A stretch of 40,157 nucleotides of DNA from a virus: positions 1 to 40,157 of IMG/VR virus record IMGVR_UViG_3300041409_000531; one strand, written 5' to 3'. This document shows positions 2,797 through 40,157 of this stretch, piece by piece. Numbering within the stretch: position 1 is the first letter of the stretch; every line of letters starts with the position of its first letter. Made by a program: the position numbers and the translations under genes. The notes under the pieces were generated by a model. That model saw only the letters and a program-made list of their open reading frames with translations. It made no database searches and was not told the DNA's origin.

Positions 2797-3612
2797 TTAC
2801 TTTCCTCTAAGCTTCGGGTGCTCGCACTTCTTCACGCCGCCCTTCCCTATCACGCCCGACGGCCAGAACATACCTGAGCCGAGACAGTCAGGACAGTCCG
2901 AATAATCCTTACGTTCGTGCGAACCTTCCCTTTTTGATTTTTCTTTTAATGCTTTTACTTTAATGGTGTCGCTTCCCGGTAGGCTATCGGTATCCGGTTG
3001 GCTATCGGGAGACGACACCCAGTATGTGGTGCCCTGCTCTTTGTTCCTGCCGATCTCGTATTCAAGCTTCCTGATGAGACCTTTGTCGATGAGGCGGTTG
3101 ACGGTCGCCTGCGTTGTCGTCTTCCCCATGTTCGTACGCCGGGCGAGCTGCGGTAAACCTATCTTGCACGTCGGTTTCCCGTAGCCGTGCGAGAGTCGGT
3201 AGAGTTGAGTGTAGATGGCCTGCTCGTAAACGTCTAAGACCTGGCAGAGCCCATCGGTGTATGCGTGAGGCTGGCGAAGGTGCCCCCGCTTGTCTTTGAA
3301 CGGCGCCCACAAATCCGGCCTTCGACTGTCGGGAGCCGGTAGGCTATCGGGTTCCGGTTGACTATCGGGCGGGTAGGCTATCGCGTCAGACGATAGTCTA
3401 TCGTCTGCGGGTAGGCTATCGGGTACAGATTGTCTATCGGGAATCGGTAGGCTAGCGGTTGCCGGTTGGCTGTCGGGGGCGGGTAGGCTATCGGGAGCCG
3501 GCAGTGTGGGCGCCGAAGATTCTACTTCATGGGCGTCCACATCAGGTTCGCGCGGGCGTCCGGGCTTACTGCGAAGCGCCTGCGCGAAGTTCAGCGGCTT
3601 CCGGTTCTCCAT
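2797..3612 (-). CDS. Winged-helix replication initiator-like protein with hexapeptide repeats
   Basis: A 271-residue protein. Residues about 38-98 are a proline-rich tract of about ten hexapeptides of the PDSLPA type. Residues about 125-198 form a likely winged helix (GKTTTQATVNRLIDKGLI), and the C terminus has a possible zinc site (CPDC at 240-243, KCEH at 262-265). The gene follows an AAA+ ATPase gene and overlaps it by 47 bases. In lambda, the initiator O and the helicase loader P are adjacent and the origin iterons lie inside O; here 18-bp repeats and a 21-bp palindrome lie inside this gene. I infer an initiator. A regulator with a flexible linker is the alternative. No polymerase or helicase domain is present. 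Confidence 0.65.
   Translation of the reverse strand: MENRKPLNFAQALRSKPGRPREPDVDAHEVESSAPTLPAPDSLPAPDSQPATASLPIPDRQSVPDSLPADDRLSSDAIAYPPDSQPEPDSLPAPDSRRPDLWAPFKDKRGHLRQPHAYTDGLCQVLDVYEQAIYTQLYRLSHGYGKPTCKIGLPQLARRTNMGKTTTQATVNRLIDKGLIRKLEYEIGRNKEQGTTYWVSSPDSQPDTDSLPGSDTIKVKALKEKSKREGSHERKDYSDCPDCLGSGMFWPSGVIGKGGVKKCEHPKLRGK
3338..3495. repeat. 18-bp iteron-like repeat array
   Basis: About nine copies of a GGTAGGCTATCGGG-like unit at 3338, 3356, 3371, 3391, 3410, 3428, 3446, 3463 and 3481, mostly 18 bp apart. Two more copies lie at 2979-3009 near the 3' end of the gene, outside the main array. The most constant core is CTATCGGG. The array encodes the PDSLPA hexapeptides. The 18-bp unit is close to the size of known initiator iterons, and the DNA core is kept where the peptide departs from consensus. 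Confidence 0.7.
3387..3407. repeat. 21-bp perfect palindrome inside the repeat array
   Basis: Arms CAGACGATAG and CTATCGTCTG around a central T at 3397. Each arm contains the CTATCG core of the surrounding repeats, so two repeat cores face each other here. It lies in the middle of the array and would suit a dimer-binding or melting site of an origin. Confidence 0.7.
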
Positions 3613-4423
3613 TGCGCTCCGTAATTAGTATGTTCTCGACAGCCAGCTTGATGATGTCGTCGATGATCGGCCTTGTTTCGTTCACAGCCGCGAGGAGAAG
3701 GGAAGCGTTAGCTATCTTCATGATCTCCCGCGGGACGCCGCGGCTTGCTACGTAGAGGGCTTTCAGCGCGTCTTCGGCGATGATGTCCAGCTTACCCCCC
3801 GCGAGGCGTATCCGGTGCTCCAGTGCGGCCACCATATCTTCAAAGGTGAAGGTGTCGAGGTAGTTCGTCAGGATGATGCGGGAGACGAGCGCGGGCTTCG
3901 TGGCAAGTTTGGTTTCTATCTCGGGCTGGCCCGCGATGATGATCTGGATGGTCTTTGCCTCGTTACTCTCGAAATTGAGCAACTCTCGCAGAAAATCGAA
4001 CTGCGCGCCCTTGAGGTTCTGCGCTTCGTCGATGATGAGGATGATGGTCCCGCCCTCAGCATAGATTTGGAAGGCGTAGTCACGTATCTCGTTTATTTGG
4101 GCTAACAACGAGCGCCGGCCGGGGAGTCCCAACTCACTTGAGATAGCCTTCGCGAGCTGCATCTCGGAAGGGAAGGAGCCGTTCGGGAGCATCGCAATCT
4201 TGTACGTCTCGTCGTCGATGTAGCCGTTCAGCAACTCCCGCAGCACGGAAGTCTTGCCGTAGCCGATTTTACCGACGATGAGTGAGAGCCCCTGACGTTC
4301 CTCGATCACGAATTTGCACTTGAACAGGCAGGCATTCGTCTGGTCGGTCAGGTAGAGGAACCGCGGGTTCGGACTCGGCACGAATGGGTTCTCTTTAAGA
4401 CCAAAAGCCTTATACGCCTTCAT
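3566..4423 (-). CDS. AAA+ ATPase, ExeA/TniB/MuB-like (helicase loader candidate)
   Basis: A 285-residue P-loop ATPase. The start FGLKENPFVPSPNPRFLYL is typical of the ExeA/TniB/MuB group. Walker A is GKIGYGKTS (51-59), Walker B IILIIDEAQN (127-136), sensor I IIIAGQPE (161-168), with a likely arginine finger in SRI (181-183). In phages, such ATPases load a replicative helicase or regulate a transposase. No transposase is present and the next gene looks like an initiator, so helicase loading is favoured. A promoter lies so close upstream (-10 ending at 4432) that the mRNA may begin at the ATG, and no ribosome-binding site is seen. Confidence 0.8.
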   Translation of the reverse strand: MKAYKAFGLKENPFVPSPNPRFLYLTDQTNACLFKCKFVIEERQGLSLIVGKIGYGKTSVLRELLNGYIDDETYKIAMLPNGSFPSEMQLAKAISSELGLPGRRSLLAQINEIRDYAFQIYAEGGTIILIIDEAQNLKGAQFDFLRELLNFESNEAKTIQIIIAGQPEIETKLATKPALVSRIILTNYLDTFTFEDMVAALEHRIRLAGGKLDIIAEDALKALYVASRGVPREIMKIANASLLLAAVNETRPIIDDIIKLAVENILITERNGEPEAAELRAGASQ

Positions 4424-4527: not shown

Positions 4528-4810
4528 ACTTCTTAGAGCCTTTTTTCGCAGACTTCTTACTCGCCTTCGCGGGCGGCAGTGCCTTCTCGTACTTCAACAT
4601 CCTGTTCTCCAACTCCAGCAGCAGGTTCTCGTGCCGTTGATCCGCCTGCTCCTTAGCGTGCCTATTCTCCTGAGCCAGCGCGCGGACGATGGCGGTGAGG
4701 TCGCGGACCTGCGTCTGCATCTCCTTGATGTCCGCCCGCTGCTGGTCGAGTTCCCGGCTGAGCGTGAGGATTCTTTGGACGAGGGAGGCGAAGTCAGAGA
4801 ACCAGCTCAT
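4526..4810 (-). CDS. Coiled-coil protein with lysine-rich tail
   Basis: A 94-residue protein. Residues about 10-75 form a continuous heptad-like helix (LSRELDQQRADIKEMQTQVRD); the tail is lysine-rich (KASKKSAKKGSKK). There is no membrane segment. The start overlaps the stop of the RRM gene by four bases (ATGA), so the two are coupled. The RRM protein also ends in a coiled coil, so a heteromeric complex is plausible but unproven. The basic tail could contact RNA or DNA. Confidence 0.65.
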   Translation of the reverse strand: MSWFSDFASLVQRILTLSRELDQQRADIKEMQTQVRDLTAIVRALAQENRHAKEQADQRHENLLLELENRMLKYEKALPPAKASKKSAKKGSKK

Positions 4811-5310
4811 GCGGCGATCATCCGTTGGAGTTCCGAGATGTTAGAGCGCGTCTCCTTCTTTAGCCTGTCAATCTCTTTTCGGTCTCGCCCCAGCCTTTCG
4901 ATTATTTCGTCTACCTCGGCAAGCTGCGCGCGCACCTCATCCGCGCTGGGCGGTTGCACTCCTTCGGCGTCAAGGCGCCCGGTCGAACTACCGCCGCGGT
5001 GCTTACGGTCATATTTGCCACCGCCGAAGCCGCCGCGCCCGCCGCCACCGGGCCTGCGGTCTTCGCGGGGCTTGGCCTCGTTGACGTTGAGCGCGCGCCC
5101 GCCGACTTCCTTGCCGTTGAACTGCTGGGTGGCCGCCTCGCCCTCTTCGCGTGAAATCATCTCGACGAAGCCGAAGCCGCGCGAGCGCCCCGTGTCACGG
5201 TCCTCGACGACCACTTCCGCCTCGACGGTGTCAGCCTGCTCGAAAAGCTCCTTAAGTTTTTCGCTATTCGTCTTAAAAGAAAGGTTGCCGACGTAAAGCT
5301 TAATTGACAT
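4807..5310 (-). CDS. RRM RNA-binding protein with Gly-rich linker and coiled coil
   Basis: A 167-residue protein. Residues about 3-80 are a textbook RNA recognition motif: RNP2 LYVGNL (5-10) and RNP1 RGFGFVEM (44-51) with both exposed aromatic positions present. Then comes an RGG-like glycine/arginine linker (about 86-106) and a charged helix at about 122-165 (EIIERLGRDRKEIDRLKKET). The first part closely resembles single-RRM proteins of Cyanobacteria and other phyla that act on mRNA fate; the C-terminal helix is extra. The ribosome-binding site is GTGAGGTA, seven bases before the ATG. It heads an operon with a coiled-coil gene. A phage-borne RRM is unusual, and acquisition from a host is likely. 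Confidence 0.88.
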   Translation of the reverse strand: MSIKLYVGNLSFKTNSEKLKELFEQADTVEAEVVVEDRDTGRSRGFGFVEMISREEGEAATQQFNGKEVGGRALNVNEAKPREDRRPGGGGRGGFGGGKYDRKHRGGSSTGRLDAEGVQPPSADEVRAQLAEVDEIIERLGRDRKEIDRLKKETRSNISELQRMIAA

Positions 5311-6088: not shown

Positions 6089-6275
6089 TACGGGCTGGGG
6101 GTTGTCAAGGCCAGGTAATGCGGGTAGTAGGTCATTTACAATGTTCAACAGGATAGGCGAACGAAGGGCGAAACTTCTCGACAAATGTTGCCAATGAATG
6201 CTAAAAGAATAAGCCTTTCAATTCAAGCGGTTGGCTTTGCCCCGTTCCCGCATCTTACTCTTTGGAGCATTCCTC

Positions 6276-7088
6276 ATGTCACTAGGCGTCGTCGTCAAAG
6301 GTTCCGAGGGGATTGTCTTAGCGGCCGATAGTCGCGTTACGCTGACGGCCACGGCGCAAGACCCGAATACGCCAAACGTCCAGATGCAAATCCCCGTCAA
6401 CTTCGACAACGCCACGAAATTGCTCACTTTTGCTGAGCCGAATCAGTGGATCGGGGCGGTGACTTACGGCGACGCGGTCATCGGCACTTCGCCCAACGAC
6501 ATACGCACCGCCCAAAGCTTCATCCCGGAGTTCGAGGTGGGGCTGCCGGAGGGCAGATTGCCCGTGCAGGAGTTCGCCCAGAGGATGAGTGACTTCTACT
6601 TGGCGCAGTGGCAGAATAAAATGCCAGCGGGGCATCAGTCGGCAGGGATGGTCTTTGTAGTCGCTGGATTTGACGAAGGCAGCGCTTATGGGTCAGTTTA
6701 CCTGTTCAACATCCCTAACACGCCCGCGCCGGAACAGCGCTCTGCCAATGATTTTGGGATAACCGCAGGGGGGCAGCACGAACACGTAATCAGGCTGGTA
6801 CAAGGGCATGACCCTGCGGTTATCGAAATAGCGAGACAGGCGTTAGGGCTCAACGCTCAGCAGGTTGACACTTTGAAGAACGCCCTCCGGCCGTTAAATC
6901 TCGGTATACCCTACGGCGTGCTACCGTTACAGGACTGCATAGATTTGGCGGTCTTTTTCATCAAAACAACGGTCGCCATCCAGAACCTTAGCATAGGCTT
7001 GAGGGGCGTAGGCGGCGGCATCGATGTTGCGGTAATAACCCAGCGGGAAGGATTAAAAGTCATCCAACGCAAAGCCTTGCACGGGTAA
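6276..7088 (+). CDS. Proteasome-like Ntn-hydrolase
   Basis: A 270-residue protein with start ATG 6276 and GGAG eight bases before it. The N terminus, MSLGVVVKGSEGIVLAADSR, matches the first strands of proteasome beta-type/HslV/Anbu proteins. Counting back from the conserved Asp (D18, family D17), Ser2 falls where the family has the catalytic Thr1, so it would be the nucleophile after removal of Met. Lys48 (NATKLLTF) may match catalytic Lys33 after an insertion. The family hydrolyses peptides within ring complexes. It is followed by an antitoxin/toxin pair with a 22-base gap. It looks like a host-derived moron; a role against host or phage proteins cannot be told. Confidence 0.75.
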   Translation: MSLGVVVKGSEGIVLAADSRVTLTATAQDPNTPNVQMQIPVNFDNATKLLTFAEPNQWIGAVTYGDAVIGTSPNDIRTAQSFIPEFEVGLPEGRLPVQEFAQRMSDFYLAQWQNKMPAGHQSAGMVFVVAGFDEGSAYGSVYLFNIPNTPAPEQRSANDFGITAGGQHEHVIRLVQGHDPAVIEIARQALGLNAQQVDTLKNALRPLNLGIPYGVLPLQDCIDLAVFFIKTTVAIQNLSIGLRGVGGGIDVAVITQREGLKVIQRKALHG

Positions 7089-7110: not shown

Positions 7111-7362
7111 ATGACGGGGACATTTACGCAGACCACGGAAACGATAGCCGAGTTGATGAAGGGAGTACAGATCGGCAACTTCAATCTCGGCAATTTCAAT
7201 CCGGCGGAAACTCGCCTTGTCCTCACGGGAGGCCAGCGGCTAGAGGCGTTCGTTAGCGGGTATGAAGAGGGCGGCGCGCGCCTGACGATGCTCGCCTCCG
7301 AACCTGTACTCCGCCGGGAGTGGAGTTCGCCGGAGGAAAATGAAGCGTGGGAAGATTTGTAA
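7111..7362 (+). CDS. Antitoxin candidate of the PemK/MazF module
   Basis: An 83-residue protein with GGAGG before the start. It lies directly upstream of a PemK/MazF-like toxin gene and overlaps it by 16 bases. The C terminus, REWSSPEENEAWEDL, is the acidic tail typical of antitoxins that wrap around such toxins (SPEExEAWxxL). The N-terminal part has no recognisable helix-turn-helix or AbrB fold, so autoregulation is uncertain. Confidence 0.7.
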   Translation: MTGTFTQTTETIAELMKGVQIGNFNLGNFNPAETRLVLTGGQRLEAFVSGYEEGGARLTMLASEPVLRREWSSPEENEAWEDL

Positions 7363-7679
7363 AGGGCGAGGTCGTAGTTTTACCCTTCCCGTTTTCGGAT
7401 TTGTCGAATACGAAAAGAAGGCCCGCCCTAGTGGTCGCCCCCTTACCCAGCAACGACGTGATTCTGTGCATGATTACGTCTAAGAACACGTCAGACGCTG
7501 ATGCCGTTCCCCTCACCGGGGCGGATTTTCAGTCCGGCTCTCTGAGGAAAGATTCAAACATCCGTCCTAACCGACTATTTACGGCTGAGGAGAGTATTGT
7601 GCTTTACTCGGTAGGCCAACTGCATGGGGCTAAGATTGCGGAAGTAACGGCTAGGCTTGTTCACATCCTTAGACGGTGA
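7347..7679 (+). CDS. PemK/MazF-like endoribonuclease toxin
   Basis: A 110-residue protein starting at GTG 7347, nine bases after GAGG. KGEVVVLPFPFSDLSNTKRRPALVV is the conserved start of the PemK/MazF family, and SLRKDSNIRPNRL...ESIV..VGQL is the usual second half. These toxins cut mRNA unless held by their antitoxin, here probably the overlapping upstream gene. On a phage such a module can stabilise the element or exclude other phages. The tract after the stop is an exceptional chain of inverted repeats. Confidence 0.85.
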   Translation: MGRFVKGEVVVLPFPFSDLSNTKRRPALVVAPLPSNDVILCMITSKNTSDADAVPLTGADFQSGSLRKDSNIRPNRLFTAEESIVLYSVGQLHGAKIAEVTARLVHILRR

Positions 7680-7752
7680 ACAGCGGTGCGGCGTTAAGTA
7701 CGAAGGTCGCGCGGCTAATCCTCATCACGCCGCATTACTTCTGCTTTGCTTC

Positions 7753-8370
7753 TGAAGTGCTTTTGAAGTGCATCTGCATTGCACATGCATTCCACTTGCA
7801 GAATCTGCCATCGGCAGCCAACCCCGATATATCTGAACGGGGTCACATTAGGACCCCGTTATATGCGAGCGGGGTGCCTCATGGCATAAGACACCCCTGT
7901 CTCATCGCATGTGACACCTCTGTATTATGGGACGATACACCCCTGTTCCGTGGGATAGGACACCCCTATTACGTCCCACAGAATAGGGGTATTCAGTCGC
8001 ATAGAACAGGCTGTTCAGTCGGACTGAATAGGGTCTGAACGGCGACATCTTGTCCACGTTCGGAGAAAAGGGGCAGTGTACTTCCTCCTTTCCCGGTAAA
8101 AAGGGGCAATCCACTGCCTCTTTGTCTGAAAAGGGGAAACGTGCTGCCCCTTTTCTCGGCACAAAAGCGGCAATGGGCTGCCCCTTTTGAAAAGGTGTCG
8201 TGGATGTCACCCTTTCGGAACTTTCGATAATCGAAAAGAATAGTTTTGATTATCGAAAGTTTTGAGCTGGCCGGCTGAAAGTTTCGATAATCAAAAGTTG
8301 CTCCTGTTCACCTGATGAACACCCCTGTTCATCAAAAACCCCAATGTTTTCCGTGCGTCAAATGACGCAC
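7753..8370. repeat. Hairpin-chain tract 1 (non-coding inverted-repeat array)
   Basis: No gene is credible here. The tract is a chain of inverted repeats in successive sequence families. Examples: AACGGGGTC/GACCCCGTT (7836-7860); a 23-bp-period block (about 7868-8030) with dyads such as GACA-CCCC-TGTC and TATTCAGTC/GACTGAATA; five AAAAGGGGCA hairpins (8063-8217) including GAGAAAAGGGGCAG/CTGCCCCTTTTCTC; three TTTCGATAATCGAAA-type palindromes (8222, 8244, 8282); TGATGAACA-CCCC-TGTTCATCA (8313-8334); and GTGCGTCA-AA-TGACGCAC in the closing box. Many arms can pair with either neighbour. Base composition is visibly less GC-rich than the genes around it. Confidence 0.85.
8333..8360. repeat. 28-bp shared box, copy 1
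   Basis: Identical to 10660-10687. It starts CAAAAACCCCAATG and ends GTGCGTCA; the last part opens a TGCGTCA-NN-TGACGCA palindrome whose two central bases are AA here and TT in the other copy. It closes hairpin-chain tract 1. Confidence 0.9.
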
Positions 8371-8398
8371 GGCTCCCCAATCGGAGCCGCATTTTTTT
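8371..8398 (+). terminator. Rho-independent terminator after tract 1
   Basis: GGCTCC (8371-8376), loop CCAATC, GGAGCC (8383-8388), then GCATTTTTTT. It would end plus-strand transcripts that pass through the toxin gene and tract 1, giving a long structured 3' end. Confidence 0.8.
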
Positions 8399-8440
8399 GG
8401 GTTGTGGGGTTTGCGTCCGTGATCTGTGTACTAGGGAGGG

Positions 8441-8494
8441 GGTGACACCAGAGACCCCTGTCTGTAGTGTCACCCCTGACACCAGAGACAGGGG
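8441..8494. repeat. Additional nested dyads beyond the terminator
   Basis: GGTGACAC/GTGTCACC (8441-8474), GTGTCA-CCCC-TGACAC (8467-8482) and CCCCTGTCT/AGACAGGGG (8455-8494) overlap one another. The CCCC centres are like those in tract 1, so this looks like a continuation of it. Confidence 0.7.
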
Positions 8495-8499
8495 AAGGT

Positions 8500-8810
8500 A
8501 ATCCCGAAATCTCTCTATATCCGGTAAATAGTAGTTTTTTTTCGCGGCGCCCGCCACCCACATCCTCTACACGCACGTGTTCATTGATGTTCGGCTTCTG
8601 TCTCTATCTCGCTATGTGGGGGGTTGGTTATCTCTTCGTCCCGATGCGGGTGATGTGAGACGGTCGGGCTGATGCTCGGTGTGTGTATTCGCTCTCGCTT
8701 TCTTCTTCGGCGCCCGCCCCTGCTACTCACGCGCCGTCGTCTCCGCCACATCCTCGCACCTACAGGCTATTAGATAGGGGCCGCCGGCCGATTTTGCTAT
8801 GGGCGGGATT
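8500..8810. other. Intergenic stretch before the PrimPol stop codon
   Basis: No gene, clear promoter or terminator seen. It has a T8 run at about 8533-8540 and pyrimidine-rich sequence. Short frames here have no coding character. Confidence 0.5.
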
Positions 8811-9830
8811 TTATGGGAGGAAAAGGTCGTTTGTCGGCGCCGATTTGTCTCGTAAGTACCAGACATTTCTTGTCAGGCGACGCATCTCAAGCGAGTCGAG
8901 CGGCTGCTGGCAGCGGAAGTCATTCGCCTGATTAAGCTCAAGCTCGATTTCAGCGAACGTGTGCCCCCGTTTCCGCAGGCTTCTGCCGTACCGAAACAGC
9001 GTGTCGTTGCGCTCGCCTGCTGGGATTGTTGCTTGGAGGCTGAATGACCGAAAATTCCCGCGTCTGAAATAGTTCTTCTGCCACTCTCGGCGAACCTTAA
9101 CGGGCAACTTCTCCAGCCCCCCGCAAGTGACCCACTTATACTGAAAGCCTGACTCGTGGATGCTCGGCGGCAAGACCACGAAAGAGCCGCTGCACTTCAT
9201 ATCAACACGGTCACTGAAGACTTTCACGGAAGTTTGGACGACCGGATCGGCCTCAAAGAAAAACTGGAAGCCTCTGCCCGTCTCGCTGGTCAGCGTGTCG
9301 TCGAACTCGCGGCAGAAAAACTCACCGGGGATTTCTTTCGTGTCCAGGTCTACCACGGTCATCCCTTGCACCGTCAGCCCAATATTCAAGTCCTGGTGTT
9401 TGTGGAAATAGTTGAGCGCCGCGCTGGTTGTGGCGTACTTGAGTCTCCACAAAGGTAAGCTCATAACGGGACGCTTGCCCCTCGGCTCGAAGGGGACAAT
9501 TTCCCACCCCGAGTTAAGGTACTGCTCAACCAACTCCCCCCTGTCTAATCCTGCCCAGACACCTGGGACTCGAAGATGGGGAGAGACGCTATTTGATAGG
9601 GTTCGCTTGTGAGGCGTTAATTTAAGTATTTCATGCCTAGGGTTTGCCCGCTTGCCGTTGCGGTAATAATTGATGATGACTTTACCCGCGTCTTCCAGCT
9701 CTTCCTTCGCCCTGCGTATTTGCCTGCGAGTAGTTCCGACCTCGGACGCCAGAGTCTCTTCCGTCTTCCAGCACACCGGCGGGAGGCGTCTGTAAAGTTC
9801 TTCGGCGATGGTTGAAAGTTTGCCGCTCAT
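8811..9830 (-). CDS. PrimPol (primase-polymerase) with N-terminal winged helix
   Basis: A 339-residue protein. Residues 1-75 look like a winged helix (ETLASEVGTTRRQIRRAKEEL). Residues about 97-260 form a bifunctional primase/polymerase domain: motif I VVDLDTK (D161-x-D163), GRGFQFFF (185-192) and VDMKCSGSFVVLPPS (209-222). Residues about 270-325 (GERNDTLFRYGRSLRKRG..) resemble a PriCT-like module. The family makes primers and can extend DNA. At the position where the family usually has His (GGxH) there is Gln188, so the active site may be altered. No helicase domain is fused. The gene stands alone between two inverted-repeat tracts. Confidence 0.82.
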   Translation of the reverse strand: MSGKLSTIAEELYRRLPPVCWKTEETLASEVGTTRRQIRRAKEELEDAGKVIINYYRNGKRANPRHEILKLTPHKRTLSNSVSPHLRVPGVWAGLDRGELVEQYLNSGWEIVPFEPRGKRPVMSLPLWRLKYATTSAALNYFHKHQDLNIGLTVQGMTVVDLDTKEIPGEFFCREFDDTLTSETGRGFQFFFEADPVVQTSVKVFSDRVDMKCSGSFVVLPPSIHESGFQYKWVTCGGLEKLPVKVRREWQKNYFRRGNFRSFSLQATIPAGERNDTLFRYGRSLRKRGHTFAEIELELNQANDFRCQQPLDSLEMRRLTRNVWYLRDKSAPTNDLFLP

Positions 9831-9876
9831 TTCGCCCGCCCCCTTTGCTCTAGCTGGTGGCGGTAGAAAAGAGAGA

Positions 9877-9904
9877 GGGCGGCGGAACCGTGGCCCCGCC
9901 GCCC
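9877..9904 (-). promoter_or_regulatory. Leader hairpin of the PrimPol transcript, attenuator-like
   Basis: GGGCGGCGG (9877-9885) pairs with CCGCCGCCC (9896-9904). On the minus strand the stem is followed by TCTCTCTTTTC just before the gene, so it may terminate part of the transcripts. Confidence 0.5.
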
Positions 9905-9962
9905 CTGATTAGAAATACAAATGCTCGAATAATTACCTACTACAAAGTCCATGACGCCGGGA

Positions 9963-9991
9963 ATTATACGCCCGACGTTCACCACAAGTAA
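9963..9991 (-). promoter_or_regulatory. Promoter of the PrimPol gene
   Basis: On the minus strand, -10 TATAAT (9968-9963) with a modest -35 TTACTT (9991-9986), 17 bp apart. The transcript would have a leader of about 125 bases containing the GC-rich hairpin. Confidence 0.55.
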
Positions 9992-10068
9992 AGGTTAAAA
10001 AAGCGCAAGATATAGTGGGCTAGGTATTGTGGTGGTTGAGGCGGGAGGCGCTAGAGGCGGGAAAGTAT

Positions 10069-10138
10069 TTCGGGGCGCTCACCTGTGTAGGTTGACTCAA
10101 AAGGCTTGTCATGGACTTTTGAGCGTGAGCGCCCCGAA
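10069..10138. repeat. Two-tier inverted repeat upstream of PrimPol
   Basis: Outer arms TTCGGGGCGCTCAC (10069-10082) and GTGAGCGCCCCGAA (10125-10138), 14 bp perfect; inner arms CTCAAAAG (10096-10103) and CTTTTGAG (10116-10123). It would fold as a long two-part stem in RNA or single-stranded DNA. It is not followed by a T-run on either strand. Confidence 0.75.
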
Positions 10139-10230
10139 CACCACGTATTATAACAGAAGCGCTCCATCGGTGGTAGCAGTTTCACTCTTGAAATCGGACT
10201 ATTTCAAGCCTTTTTAGCCTGTTCACGGTA

Positions 10231-10660
10231 CGAACACCCCCCTCGGAATATGACCCCCTCCAAAATGATAGCCCTATCAAAATGGAGCCCCTCCAAACTG
10301 GTGGGGGTCTTCGAAAGTGAAGACCCTTGATAATCAAGAATCTTAATAATCGAGTTTGTTGATTATCAAGGAAGTGAAGAATCGGGCGGGTGTGATGACA
10401 TTTTGTCCTGACTAGAATTTGTGCAGACAAAATGTCATCACTGAGGGCGTCAGGTTGTCGTGAGTAGTGATGACAAAATGTCGTGACTAGGAGCGTCACC
10501 TTGTCGTTACAAGAAACCACGTCACATCTGACGCCCTTTCCTCCGAAACCCTGTCAGGTATGACGGACTTAAAGTAGAAACCCCGTCAGATGTGTCATGC
10601 TTCCAAGCGAAAGAGCGTCAGATGTGGCGGGCTTATCAACGCTGCGTGGAGGGATGACGC
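10231..10660. repeat. Hairpin-chain tract 2 (non-coding inverted-repeat array)
   Basis: Same architecture as tract 1. Families include TGATAG-CC-CTATCA, GGTCTTC/GAAGACC (10306-10325), CTTGATAATCAAG with GATTATCAAG (10326-10370), TGATGACATTTTGTC/GACAAAATGTCATCA (10393-10440, 15 bp perfect) with a third GACAAAATGTC at 10472-10482, and several GTCA-N4-TGAC or GTCAGATGTG units (10520-10628). The GATAATC core is shared with tract 1. No credible gene. Confidence 0.82.
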
Positions 10661-10687
10661 AAAAACCCCAATGTTTTCCGTGCGTCA
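10660..10687. repeat. 28-bp shared box, copy 2
   Basis: Identical to 8333-8360 and in the same orientation. Together the copies bracket the PrimPol gene about 2.3 kb apart. It closes tract 2 and begins a TGCGTCA-TT-TGACGCA palindrome. Confidence 0.9.
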
Positions 10688-10780
10688 TTTGACGCAGTAT
10701 TGCAAGGGGCGTGCCCGAACTCGAAGGCCGAGGGGTGCGATTACTGGGTCTTCGAGAATCAGTTGCCGAAGGCTTAAACC

Positions 10781-10808
10781 GGCAGATGCCTCACGTGAGG
10801 CATCTGCC
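10781..10808. repeat. 28-bp perfect palindrome
   Basis: GGCAGATGCCTCAC followed at once by its reverse complement, with no loop. It lies in the gene-free tract between the shared box and the ParB-like remnant. As DNA it could extrude as a cruciform or bind a dimeric protein. Confidence 0.85.
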
Positions 10809-10993
10809 TCGAACCGGGCGGCTCTGAGGCCGTTGTTCGCCCGGCGTTGTCGGTTAGCGGTTCCGTTGAGACCGCCGCCGTGGGCAACGTTAAAAAGCCG
10901 ACCAAGCCGAACTCAGAATAGGCTCAAGCGGGGACGGCGGATACAGCGGGACTTCCGACGGGCGACGGGGCATACCCAAGAAGCCGTAGGTTC

Positions 10994-11087
10994 GGAGTCG
11001 TAACGAAGCTGCCTCCGTCACGAGCCAATAGGCGGCAAATGTGCAACGTTGCACATTTGAACAAGACGGACGGTTAGCTACGACTCC
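10994..11087. repeat. Three-tier nested inverted repeat
   Basis: Outer GGAGTCGTA (10994-11002) / TACGACTCC (11079-11087), middle TCCGTC (11014-11019) / GACGGA (11065-11070), and a central 24-bp loopless palindrome with arm CAAATGTGCAAC (11036-11059). It ends 45 bases before the ParB-like start codon, so it could also be a leader structure. Confidence 0.8.
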
Positions 11088-11132
11088 CTCAAGGCTCAAG
11101 AGCAACCCAAGTAGGCGCTGAGGAGAATCGCT

Positions 11133-11387
11133 ATGCAGACGTACCAAGAACACGAACTGAGTAAGTTACTCCCGATGATGGAGGAGTCCGACTTGGGTGA
11201 GCTTGCGGCCGACATTTCCTTGAACGGACTGCGCGCGCCCATCACGCTTTTCGAGGGGAAGATTCTCGACGGGCGGAATCGCTACAAGGCGTGCCATCTG
11301 GTTAAGGTCGCGCCTCGGTTTCGTGATTTGATTAGAGGTTACTGTGCAAGCAGTTTCTGCAAGACATTTTCGCAAAAATATATATAA
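11133..11387 (+). pseudogene. Truncated ParB/sulfiredoxin-fold protein
   Basis: An 84-residue frame with a good ribosome-binding site (GAGGAG). Residues about 6-65 match the N-terminal ParB/Srx nuclease-like domain: ELSKLLPMMEESDLGELAAD and GLRAPITLFEGKILDGRNRY. The family normally continues into a helix-turn-helix region; here the sequence changes after VAPRF to an unrelated tail and stops. The 3' end overlaps the convergent gene 11339-11911 by 49 bases. I read it as a fragment left by recombination, though a minimal ParB-like protein cannot be excluded. No ParA gene is present. Confidence 0.65.
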
Positions 11388-11911: not shown

Positions 11912-12159
11912 TTCTTACTGCCTTTCTCCTCTTCAGGGACTGCCATCAGCCAGAGGGCGTCAAACCGCTCGCGTGCTTGATGTGAGCCGTAAGCTTGATG
12001 CCAGAATGAGTAGGCCAAACCCCGCATGATTTTGCGAGCTTCTGCCTGCGCCTCCTCAGGAGAAAGTGATGATAGAGGCGCAATTTCCTGCACATATCTT
12101 GTTTCAGCGCCGGCATCGAGAGCTTGGGCGAACCCTATATGTCGTCCCGTGTCACTCAC
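11908..12159 (-). CDS. Small protein of unknown function (83 residues)
   Basis: An 83-residue protein: an N-terminal segment, then a helical region (SPEEAQAEARKIMRGLAYSF) and a lysine-rich end (EEEKGSKK). It overlaps both neighbours by four bases (ATGA), so all three genes of this leftward operon are translationally coupled. No motif recognised. Confidence 0.62.
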   Translation of the reverse strand: MSDTGRHIGFAQALDAGAETRYVQEIAPLSSLSPEEAQAEARKIMRGLAYSFWHQAYGSHQARERFDALWLMAVPEEEKGSKK

Positions 12160-12365
12160 TTCTTTCTGCCTTTCTTCATAGGTTTAGGCTTAGGGCCAGA
12201 TTTCAGGTTAGGCTTTGGCGCATCTGCCGGAACTTGATAGTAATAGCCGCCTCCGTAAGGTAGCGGCTGTTTGACTGCTCCATCGAGCAAGCCCTTACTC
12301 AACCAATTCATTACTGTGGTGTAAGCGACACCGACATCTTGAGCGTATTGTCGCGGCGTAAGCAT
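12156..12365 (-). CDS. Small helix-turn-helix protein (Xis/Cro-like candidate)
   Basis: A 69-residue protein if started at ATG 12365, eight bases after GGGGAAGG. Longer frames would start inside the promoter, so this start is preferred. Residues 1-45 (LTPRQYAQDVGVAYTTVMNW, then LSKGLLDG..) read as the helix-turn-helix of the excisionase/MerR-like helix-17 family; the C terminus is basic (KPKPMKKGRKK). It is the first gene after three TGTAG-N4-CTACA sites, so it may bind them and control both promoters. Whether it acts as a repressor, Cro or excisionase cannot be decided; no integrase gene is present. Confidence 0.7.
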   Translation of the reverse strand: MLTPRQYAQDVGVAYTTVMNWLSKGLLDGAVKQPLPYGGGYYYQVPADAPKPNLKSGPKPKPMKKGRKK

Positions 12366-12391
12366 CCGTTTCACCTTCCCCATAAAATCAT

Positions 12392-12405
12392 TGTAGTCAT
12401 CTACC
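12392..12405. promoter_or_regulatory. Operator 3, TGTAG-TCAT-CTACC
   Basis: Near-perfect copy of the TGTAG-N4-CTACA site (one mismatch), covering the expected start of the leftward transcript. Confidence 0.6.
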
Positions 12406-12408
12406 GAA

Positions 12409-12436
12409 ATTATACGCAAGAATTATCGGGATGCAA
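12409..12436 (-). promoter_or_regulatory. Leftward promoter
   Basis: On the minus strand, -35 TTGCAT (12436-12431), 16-bp spacer, -10 TATAAT (12414-12409). It drives the three-gene leftward operon starting at 12365. Confidence 0.68.
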
Positions 12437-39927: not shown

Positions 39928-40157
39928 TCACCTTTTATCCAGTTCCGTCTTGATGGAGCGGAACTGTTCGGCGACGCTCTCGAAGACGCTCGCCGTGTGG
40001 GACTGTAAGCCGAGAAACAGTTTCATCTGGTCTGACATCGCCTGCGTTAACTGCGCGTGCTGCCGGGCGGATGTCTCGGACAATTCTTTAAGGGCGACGA
40101 CGATGCCGGCGTGCTGCTCGCTGCTGTCGTGCGCGAGTTGCGACAGGTCGGTGCGCG
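39928..40157 (-). CDS. TM/coiled-coil protein, C-terminal part (crosses the join)
   Basis: This is the 3' part of the gene that begins at 295. It stays in frame through the terminal repeat and ends at a TGA four bases before the next ATG (39924). The encoded C terminus is helical and polar (SDQMKLFLGLQSHTASVF), with no second membrane segment and no catalytic motif. The tight spacing shows co-transcription with the tail and terminase genes. Function unknown: spanin-like, structural or scaffold-like roles are all possible. Confidence 0.72.
   Translation of the reverse strand, partial: RTDLSQLAHDSSEQHAGIVVALKELSETSARQHAQLTQAMSDQMKLFLGLQSHTASVFESVAEQFRSIKTELDKR
40107..40157. repeat. Terminal direct repeat, right copy
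   Basis: Exact copy of bases 1-51. Removing one copy gives a circle of about 40,106 bp. It lies inside the coding sequence of the TM/coiled-coil gene, which stays open across the join. Confidence 0.95.

Follow-up and report, generated by a model that had tools for sequence, protein, structure and literature searches.

Periodic repeat arrays flanking a PrimPol gene in an uncultivated phage as a possible iteron-type origin or copy-control locus

The PrimPol replicon of pRN1 needs a stem-loop beside its gene; the structure of this element is conserved while its sequence is not, and a similar stem-loop has been reported in phage BIP-1 (PMC4234260). In SaPI and SCC elements, iteron origins lie beside Rep genes (PMC7581432), and in mycobacteriophages, replication/partition cassettes are found in place of integration cassettes (PMC7157519). 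Here, we describe two repeat-rich tracts on either side of a PrimPol gene and compare them with these systems.

The window, i.e., the whole stretch of DNA analysed, is an IMG/VR record of 40157 bases. Bases 1-51 and 40107-40157 are identical, and because of this 51-bp terminal overlap, the record most simply represents a complete genome that maps as a circle of 40106 bp. It most likely belongs to a tailed phage; a GpA-type terminase, a lambda-type portal, and phage capsid and tail genes are encoded on the minus strand. No match was found in this genome for the integrase/recombinase profiles PF00589, PF00239, and PF00665. The PrimPol gene is flanked by the gaps 7680-8810 (containing tract 1) and 9831-11132 (containing tract 2), which are two of the three largest in the gene map and, among the large gaps, the only two to stand out as the most palindrome-rich (IR9 of 0.18 and 0.15, compared to 0.05 in other non-coding DNA and 0.02 in coding DNA). 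The G+C content of this accessory region is lower than that of its surroundings (0.51-0.55 versus 0.61-0.68), and no long DNA alignment to relatives was obtained for 5.8-12.5 kb of the window. For these two reasons, the 5.8-12.5 kb region looks like an exchanged module. The genes and gene-associated features considered below are as follows:

2797-3612: O-like initiator gene with a winged helix
3329-3501, minus strand: 18-bp iterons inside the O-like gene (TRF 9.6 copies, lag-54 z 9.3)
3566-4423: AAA/MuB-like ATPase
7111-7679: MazF/PemK-like toxin (PF02452) with a likely antitoxin before the toxin gene, the pair adjoining tract 1
8811-9830, minus strand: PrimPol gene (start 9830, 339 aa), with a winged-helix N terminus, PrimPol, and PriCT_1; candidate initiator
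9963-9992, minus strand: sigma70-like PrimPol promoter TTTACT-18-TATAAT (consensus match only)

The phage also encodes a protein with an RRM RNA-binding domain (4807-5310; PF00076, 5e-18), and the product of 6231-7088 appeared proteasome-subunit-like by eye (GIVLAADSRVT), with no Pfam match. Beyond tract 2, a short ORF (11133-11387) was judged by eye to resemble a truncated ParB-like N-terminal domain, again with no Pfam match, and a small gene near the tract (12156-12419) was judged, also by eye, to be HTH-like.

Tract 2 (10231-10700) departed strongly from chance. Its inverted-repeat coverage was 91 nt compared to 5.2±8.0 (maximum 54) in 500 dinucleotide shuffles, and folding z scores against shuffles were -8.7 for plus-strand ssDNA, -9.7 for plus-strand RNA, and -8.7 for minus-strand RNA. 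Self-matching at a lag of 32 reached a z of 8.4, while the top shuffle score across all lags was 5.1 (500 shuffles), and the observed tandem periodicity was reached in 0 of 500 shuffles. The original prediction had described this tract as a chain of hairpins. All the words it named are present, e.g., CTTGATAATCAAG at 10326-10338, the third core copy GACAAAATGTC at 10472, GTCA-N4-TGAC at 10521 and 10553, and GTCAGATGTG at 10585 and 10617; its perfect inverted pair was also recovered, with a length of 16 bp and not 15 bp. As the main organisation, however, the hairpin chain did not hold: the units are degenerate tandem repeats (iterons) at a regular period, forming arrays of dyad-symmetric sites with periods of 16, 23, and 32 bp that had been overlooked, as had a 28-bp repeat joining the two tracts:

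10255-10301: array a, three ~16-bp CCCCTCCAAAATGGAG-like units with nested palindromes (TRF period 16, 2.9 copies)
10320-10383: array b, three GATAATC palindromes, CTTGATAATCAAG, CTTAATAATCGAG, and TTGATTATCAAG (lag-16 z 6.1)
10392-10512: array c, five 23-bp units starting at 10392, 10421, 10444, 10467, and 10490 (lag-23 z 6.1, unit alignment)
10515-10642: array d, four 32-bp units AACC.CGTCAGAT.TG.CG..CTT, starting at 10515, 10547, 10579, and 10611 (lag-32 z 8.4)
10660-10695, plus strand: 28-bp exact repeat CAAAAACCCCAATGTTTTCCGTGCGTCA, followed by palindrome TGCGTCATTTGACGCA

Array c has the conserved columns g.g..G.CA...TGTC.T.Acta with GACA-N3-TGTC dyads; its first unit (10392) is displaced by 6 bp from the register, and the array holds the 16-bp inverted pair, GTGATGACATTTTGTC (10392-10407) and GACAAAATGTCATCAC (10426-10441). 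In array d, the conserved columns are AAcc.cGTCAgaT.TG.Cg..CTT.....cGa, with GTCA-N4-TGAC dyads. Alignment of the units showed that their cores are conserved while the spacers have diverged. The GTCA/TGAC half-site is common to separate repeat families and shows the strongest enrichment of any 4-mer in tract 2 (18 compared to 5.1 expected), where its count reaches the genome maximum. The periods of 11, 16, 22-23, and 32-33 bp correspond to approximately 1, 1.5, 2, and 3 turns of DNA, with 23 bp being the least exact, and these near-helical values are suggestive of binding in register. The A+T content along the tract is modest (~0.48-0.58), although above the genome average, and the DnaA-box consensus is absent from the window. 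A coding role for tract 2 was rejected, since none of the periods (16, 23, and 32) is divisible by three and the overlapping ORFs match no family. A nucleotide search of the locus against phage and plasmid records gave no match, and the 16-mer CCCGTCASATSTGACG was found in 31 IMG/VR stretches, which, judged by their flanks and local palindrome content, showed no sign of homology except in relative G003.

These features resemble the iteron origins of plasmids, lambdoid phage O genes, and SaPI/SCC elements, which likewise consist of ~20-30 bp tandem direct repeats, with conserved cores and variable spacers, at or in the initiator gene; here, the regular 23- and 32-bp arrays lie next to the gene for a winged-helix PrimPol. 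However, such origins usually have one repeat family, whereas this genome has several families in two tracts, in addition to the array of the O-like gene.

Tract 1, on the other side of the PrimPol gene, had an inverted-repeat coverage of 168 compared to 9.6±10.5 in shuffles, and this gap contains the following:

7732-7800: 11-bp direct repeats (TRF, lag-11 z 6.9)
7889-8033: four 23-bp GACACCCCTGT units and ~22-bp GAATAGGGGTATTC palindromes (lag-23 z 8.3)
8066-8197: ~33-bp AAAAGGGGCA units with inverted TGCCCCTTTT (lag-33 z 5.1)
8220-8300: three GATAATC palindromes
8333-8372, plus strand: second copy of the 28-bp repeat, with CCGTGCGTCAAATGACGCACGG, in the same orientation
8433-8494: palindromic element GGTGACACCASAGACC..GGTGTCAC, matching relatives G001, G003, and G004 at the corresponding place (best E 8e-6)

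The 28-bp repeat pair (8333 and 10660), with one copy per tract, brackets the PrimPol gene. The terminal overlap aside, no other exact direct repeat in the genome reaches 18 bp, and an exact 24-mer of this repeat had no match in IMG/VR. The first 23-bp unit of tract 1 contains a GACA-N4-TGTC dyad (GACACCCCTGTC) comparable to the GACA-N3-TGTC dyads of tract 2, and GATAATC indeed recurs between the tracts, with three palindromes of this type in each. The original prediction had reasoned that two independent tracts argue for a function or a common generating process. A shared process is supported by the 28-bp repeat, the GATAATC palindromes, and the 23-bp period with its GACA-N-TGTC dyads, and for the same reasons neither tract is independent of the other.

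As predicted, tract 2 lies upstream of PrimPol, whose minus-strand gene starts at 9830. The protein matched PF09250 (8.8e-19) and PF08708 (4.5e-7), with an RP-C N-terminal match below the cut-off, and its residues 20-83 match PHROG replication initiation proteins. The motif-II His, present in 6/6 aligned homologues, is replaced by Gln (TGRGFQ), and because of this replacement, priming may have been lost, with DNA binding perhaps kept. A PDB sequence search gave no match, a single-sequence structure model was unusable (pLDDT 37), searches of IMG/VR and of GTDB genomes retrieved no relatives of the PrimPol, and the terminase had no match in GTDB genomes. The pRN1-type replicon likewise combines a winged-helix PrimPol protein with adjacent non-coding inverted repeats, conserved more in structure than in sequence. 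However, its protein joins PrimPol to an SF3 helicase and a C-terminal winged helix, whereas here the winged helix is N-terminal, there is no helicase domain, and the motif-II His is Gln. In addition, the tracts here lie on both sides of PrimPol. A single large stem-loop (~100 nt) serves pRN1; the window has arrays with one hairpin with 16-bp arms, and relatives G003 and G004 have a palindrome with 31-36-bp arms.

Eight relatives with terminase identities of 73-89% were found in IMG/VR. PrimPol (PF09250) was present in this genome (G000), G003, and G004, none of which has an integrase, and tyrosine integrase (PF00589) was found only in G005 and G008, so that the two were mutually exclusive in the five genomes of this one group. 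Resolvase, rve, ParA, and ParB_N profiles had no match in any genome examined. The extrachromosomal mycobacterial prophages (PMC7157519) likewise lack an integrase where a replication module is present, and vice versa; they differ in carrying RepA and not PrimPol, and parABS, which was not found here, and the comparison rests on a small sample of five genomes. The genome thus has what a phage-plasmid would have in being apparently complete, without an integrase, and with a plasmid-type replication gene, although these features would also be expected of a lytic phage, and no partition system was found.

G003 and G004 carry a different, longer PrimPol ORF (637 and 774 aa, respectively) in the same region. 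G004 is apparently also complete, given a terminal overlap of 127 bp; at the locus, its palindromes are sparse and dense tracts are absent. Short pieces nevertheless recur between the window and these relatives: G004 has a 29-bp piece with GATAATC directly after the PrimPol stop codon. G003 carries one such recurring CGTCACATCTGACGCCC unit and, upstream of PrimPol (L015 4839-4977), a cluster of DnaA-box-like TTTCCACA sites together with long inverted repeats. G003 and G004 also share, in the DNA upstream of PrimPol, a palindrome with 31-36-bp arms (L015 4531-4612 and L017 4554-4635), in which a difference in one arm is accompanied by a matching one in the other and pairing is kept; these palindromes sit directly behind a stop codon and may be terminators. 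The palindrome GGTGACACC..GGTGTCAC recurs in G001, G003, and G004, and an IMG/VR pattern scan for the 8433-8494 element retrieved only G003 and G004. In distant PrimPol phages and one plasmid (L069-L072), dense tracts were absent. Related phages replicating without the tracts had been named as the case against a function: G005 and G008 do lack them, yet these two are also without PrimPol and have an integrase instead, and G004 keeps sparse palindromes only. Long palindromes alone were rejected as a marker of PrimPol loci, since big hairpins occur elsewhere too; in G005, a large hairpin with repeated TCGTAATACGAAG follows a gene away from any PrimPol (L023 9888-9990).

Our main reading, to which we assign a probability of roughly 0.48, is that tracts 2 and 1 together form a cis-acting, non-coding array of duplex binding sites that serves as an iteron-type origin or copy-number/incompatibility locus of the PrimPol module. 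The winged helix of PrimPol, possibly together with further factors from the phage or its host, would bind the GTCA/TGAC-type dyads that follow one another every 23 or 32 bp, and binding would either bend and open the region or pair arrays to limit initiation. After opening, PrimPol or a partner would prime. We infer PrimPol binding and origin activity, and also a plasmid lifestyle, in which the module might maintain the prophage in plasmid form, as proposed because the PrimPol phages of this group are without integrases. Consistent with an origin or control locus are the periodic arrays, the half-site enrichment, the conserved cores, the initiator-like winged helix, the restriction of palindrome-rich gaps to PrimPol, the PrimPol/integrase pattern, the DnaA-box-like cluster of G003, and the paired changes in the G003/G004 palindrome. 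Against it stand the O-like array, the motif-II Gln, the absence of both a DnaA-box consensus in the window and a partition gene, the lack of dense tracts in G004, and a number of repeat families that exceeds the need of one initiator. The array is non-random and well bounded. It is most likely a replication or copy-control site whose general type is familiar, the one unusual feature being that several repeat families are stacked in it.

The in-gene array of the O-like initiator, ~7 kb from tract 2, is an equally good origin candidate, and the interior of the initiator gene is the classical lambdoid origin position. In G001 (L006 2300-2800), a different in-gene repeat, GTGGACGCCCACA, was found and only the N-terminal O-like part is shared, which suggests that initiator and iterons may be swapped together as a module between relatives.

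Dyad-symmetric sites at even spacing would also suit dimeric regulators, and an operator array, in which the repeats bind repressors or activators for lysogeny or the flanking gene sets and have no replication role, is an unlikely but serious alternative. Several families could correspond to several regulators, the HTH-like gene at 12156-12419 is close by, and GATAAT words lie within promoter-like matches. However, tract 2 does not span the promoter-like site of PrimPol but sits 240-700 bp upstream of it, and it lies 430 bp before the next plus-strand ORF, and 5 + 4 + 3 sites of differing families are rarely needed by regulators.

The conservation of cores next to diverged spacers, the half-site shared by separate families, and the two-sided changes by which the relatives' palindromes are kept all argue against a mutational by-product without function, in which local duplication and quasi-palindromic template switching would have built up the repeats in a gap that was acquired recently and is under no constraint. 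We consider this explanation rather doubtful, even though the many unrelated families, their poor conservation among relatives, the low-GC accessory setting (0.51-0.55 versus 0.61-0.68), and the lack of dense tracts in G004 would fit it. It is improbable that the many different iteron families around the one PrimPol gene (four or more in tract 2, and four to five in tract 1) make up a composite cis-locus that acts either as an origin for multiple initiators or as a decoy library titrating the initiators of competing replicons.

A further reading, in which the structure of ssDNA hairpins and not duplex sequence is recognised as primase start sites of the RSF1010 ssiA/ssiB or pRN1 stem-loop type, is quite improbable. 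Such sites are used by the AEP primases RepB' and pRN1 ORF904 (PMC4434180, PMC4234260), RSF1010 RepB' likewise pairs an AEP primase with cis hairpins (PMC4434180), and both strands of tract 2 fold strongly. RSF1010, however, has one 40-nt site per strand, whereas the arrays here are duplex-like iterons; most units are short 4-5 bp dyads with 2-4 nt spacers, the periodicity and half-site enrichment are better explained by duplex recognition, and the PrimPol has lost its motif-II His.

We regard a centromere-like partition site as very improbable: the ORF at 11133-11387 is ParB-like by eye, but it has no Pfam match, and neither ParB_N nor ParA (AAA_31) profiles matched in the window or the relatives. 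Direct repeats of 11 bp and longer do resemble ParR/ParB-type arrays, which counts in favour of such a site. Least credible is a structured non-coding RNA (a small RNA, decoy, or anti-defence RNA), as the original prediction had partly envisaged and the RNA folding z of -9.7 might favour, given that no Rfam family matched, the strands fold about equally, as palindromic DNA must, and the sole promoter-like match within the tract is weak.

If the origin or copy-control reading is right, the locus would represent an uncharacterised PrimPol-based replicon in uncultivated phages, with the replication module apparently in the integrase's place. The sharply defined 23- and 32-bp units would then provide sites for testing binding by the winged-helix PrimPol, and the locus would also suggest how iteron families turn over while the architecture is kept.
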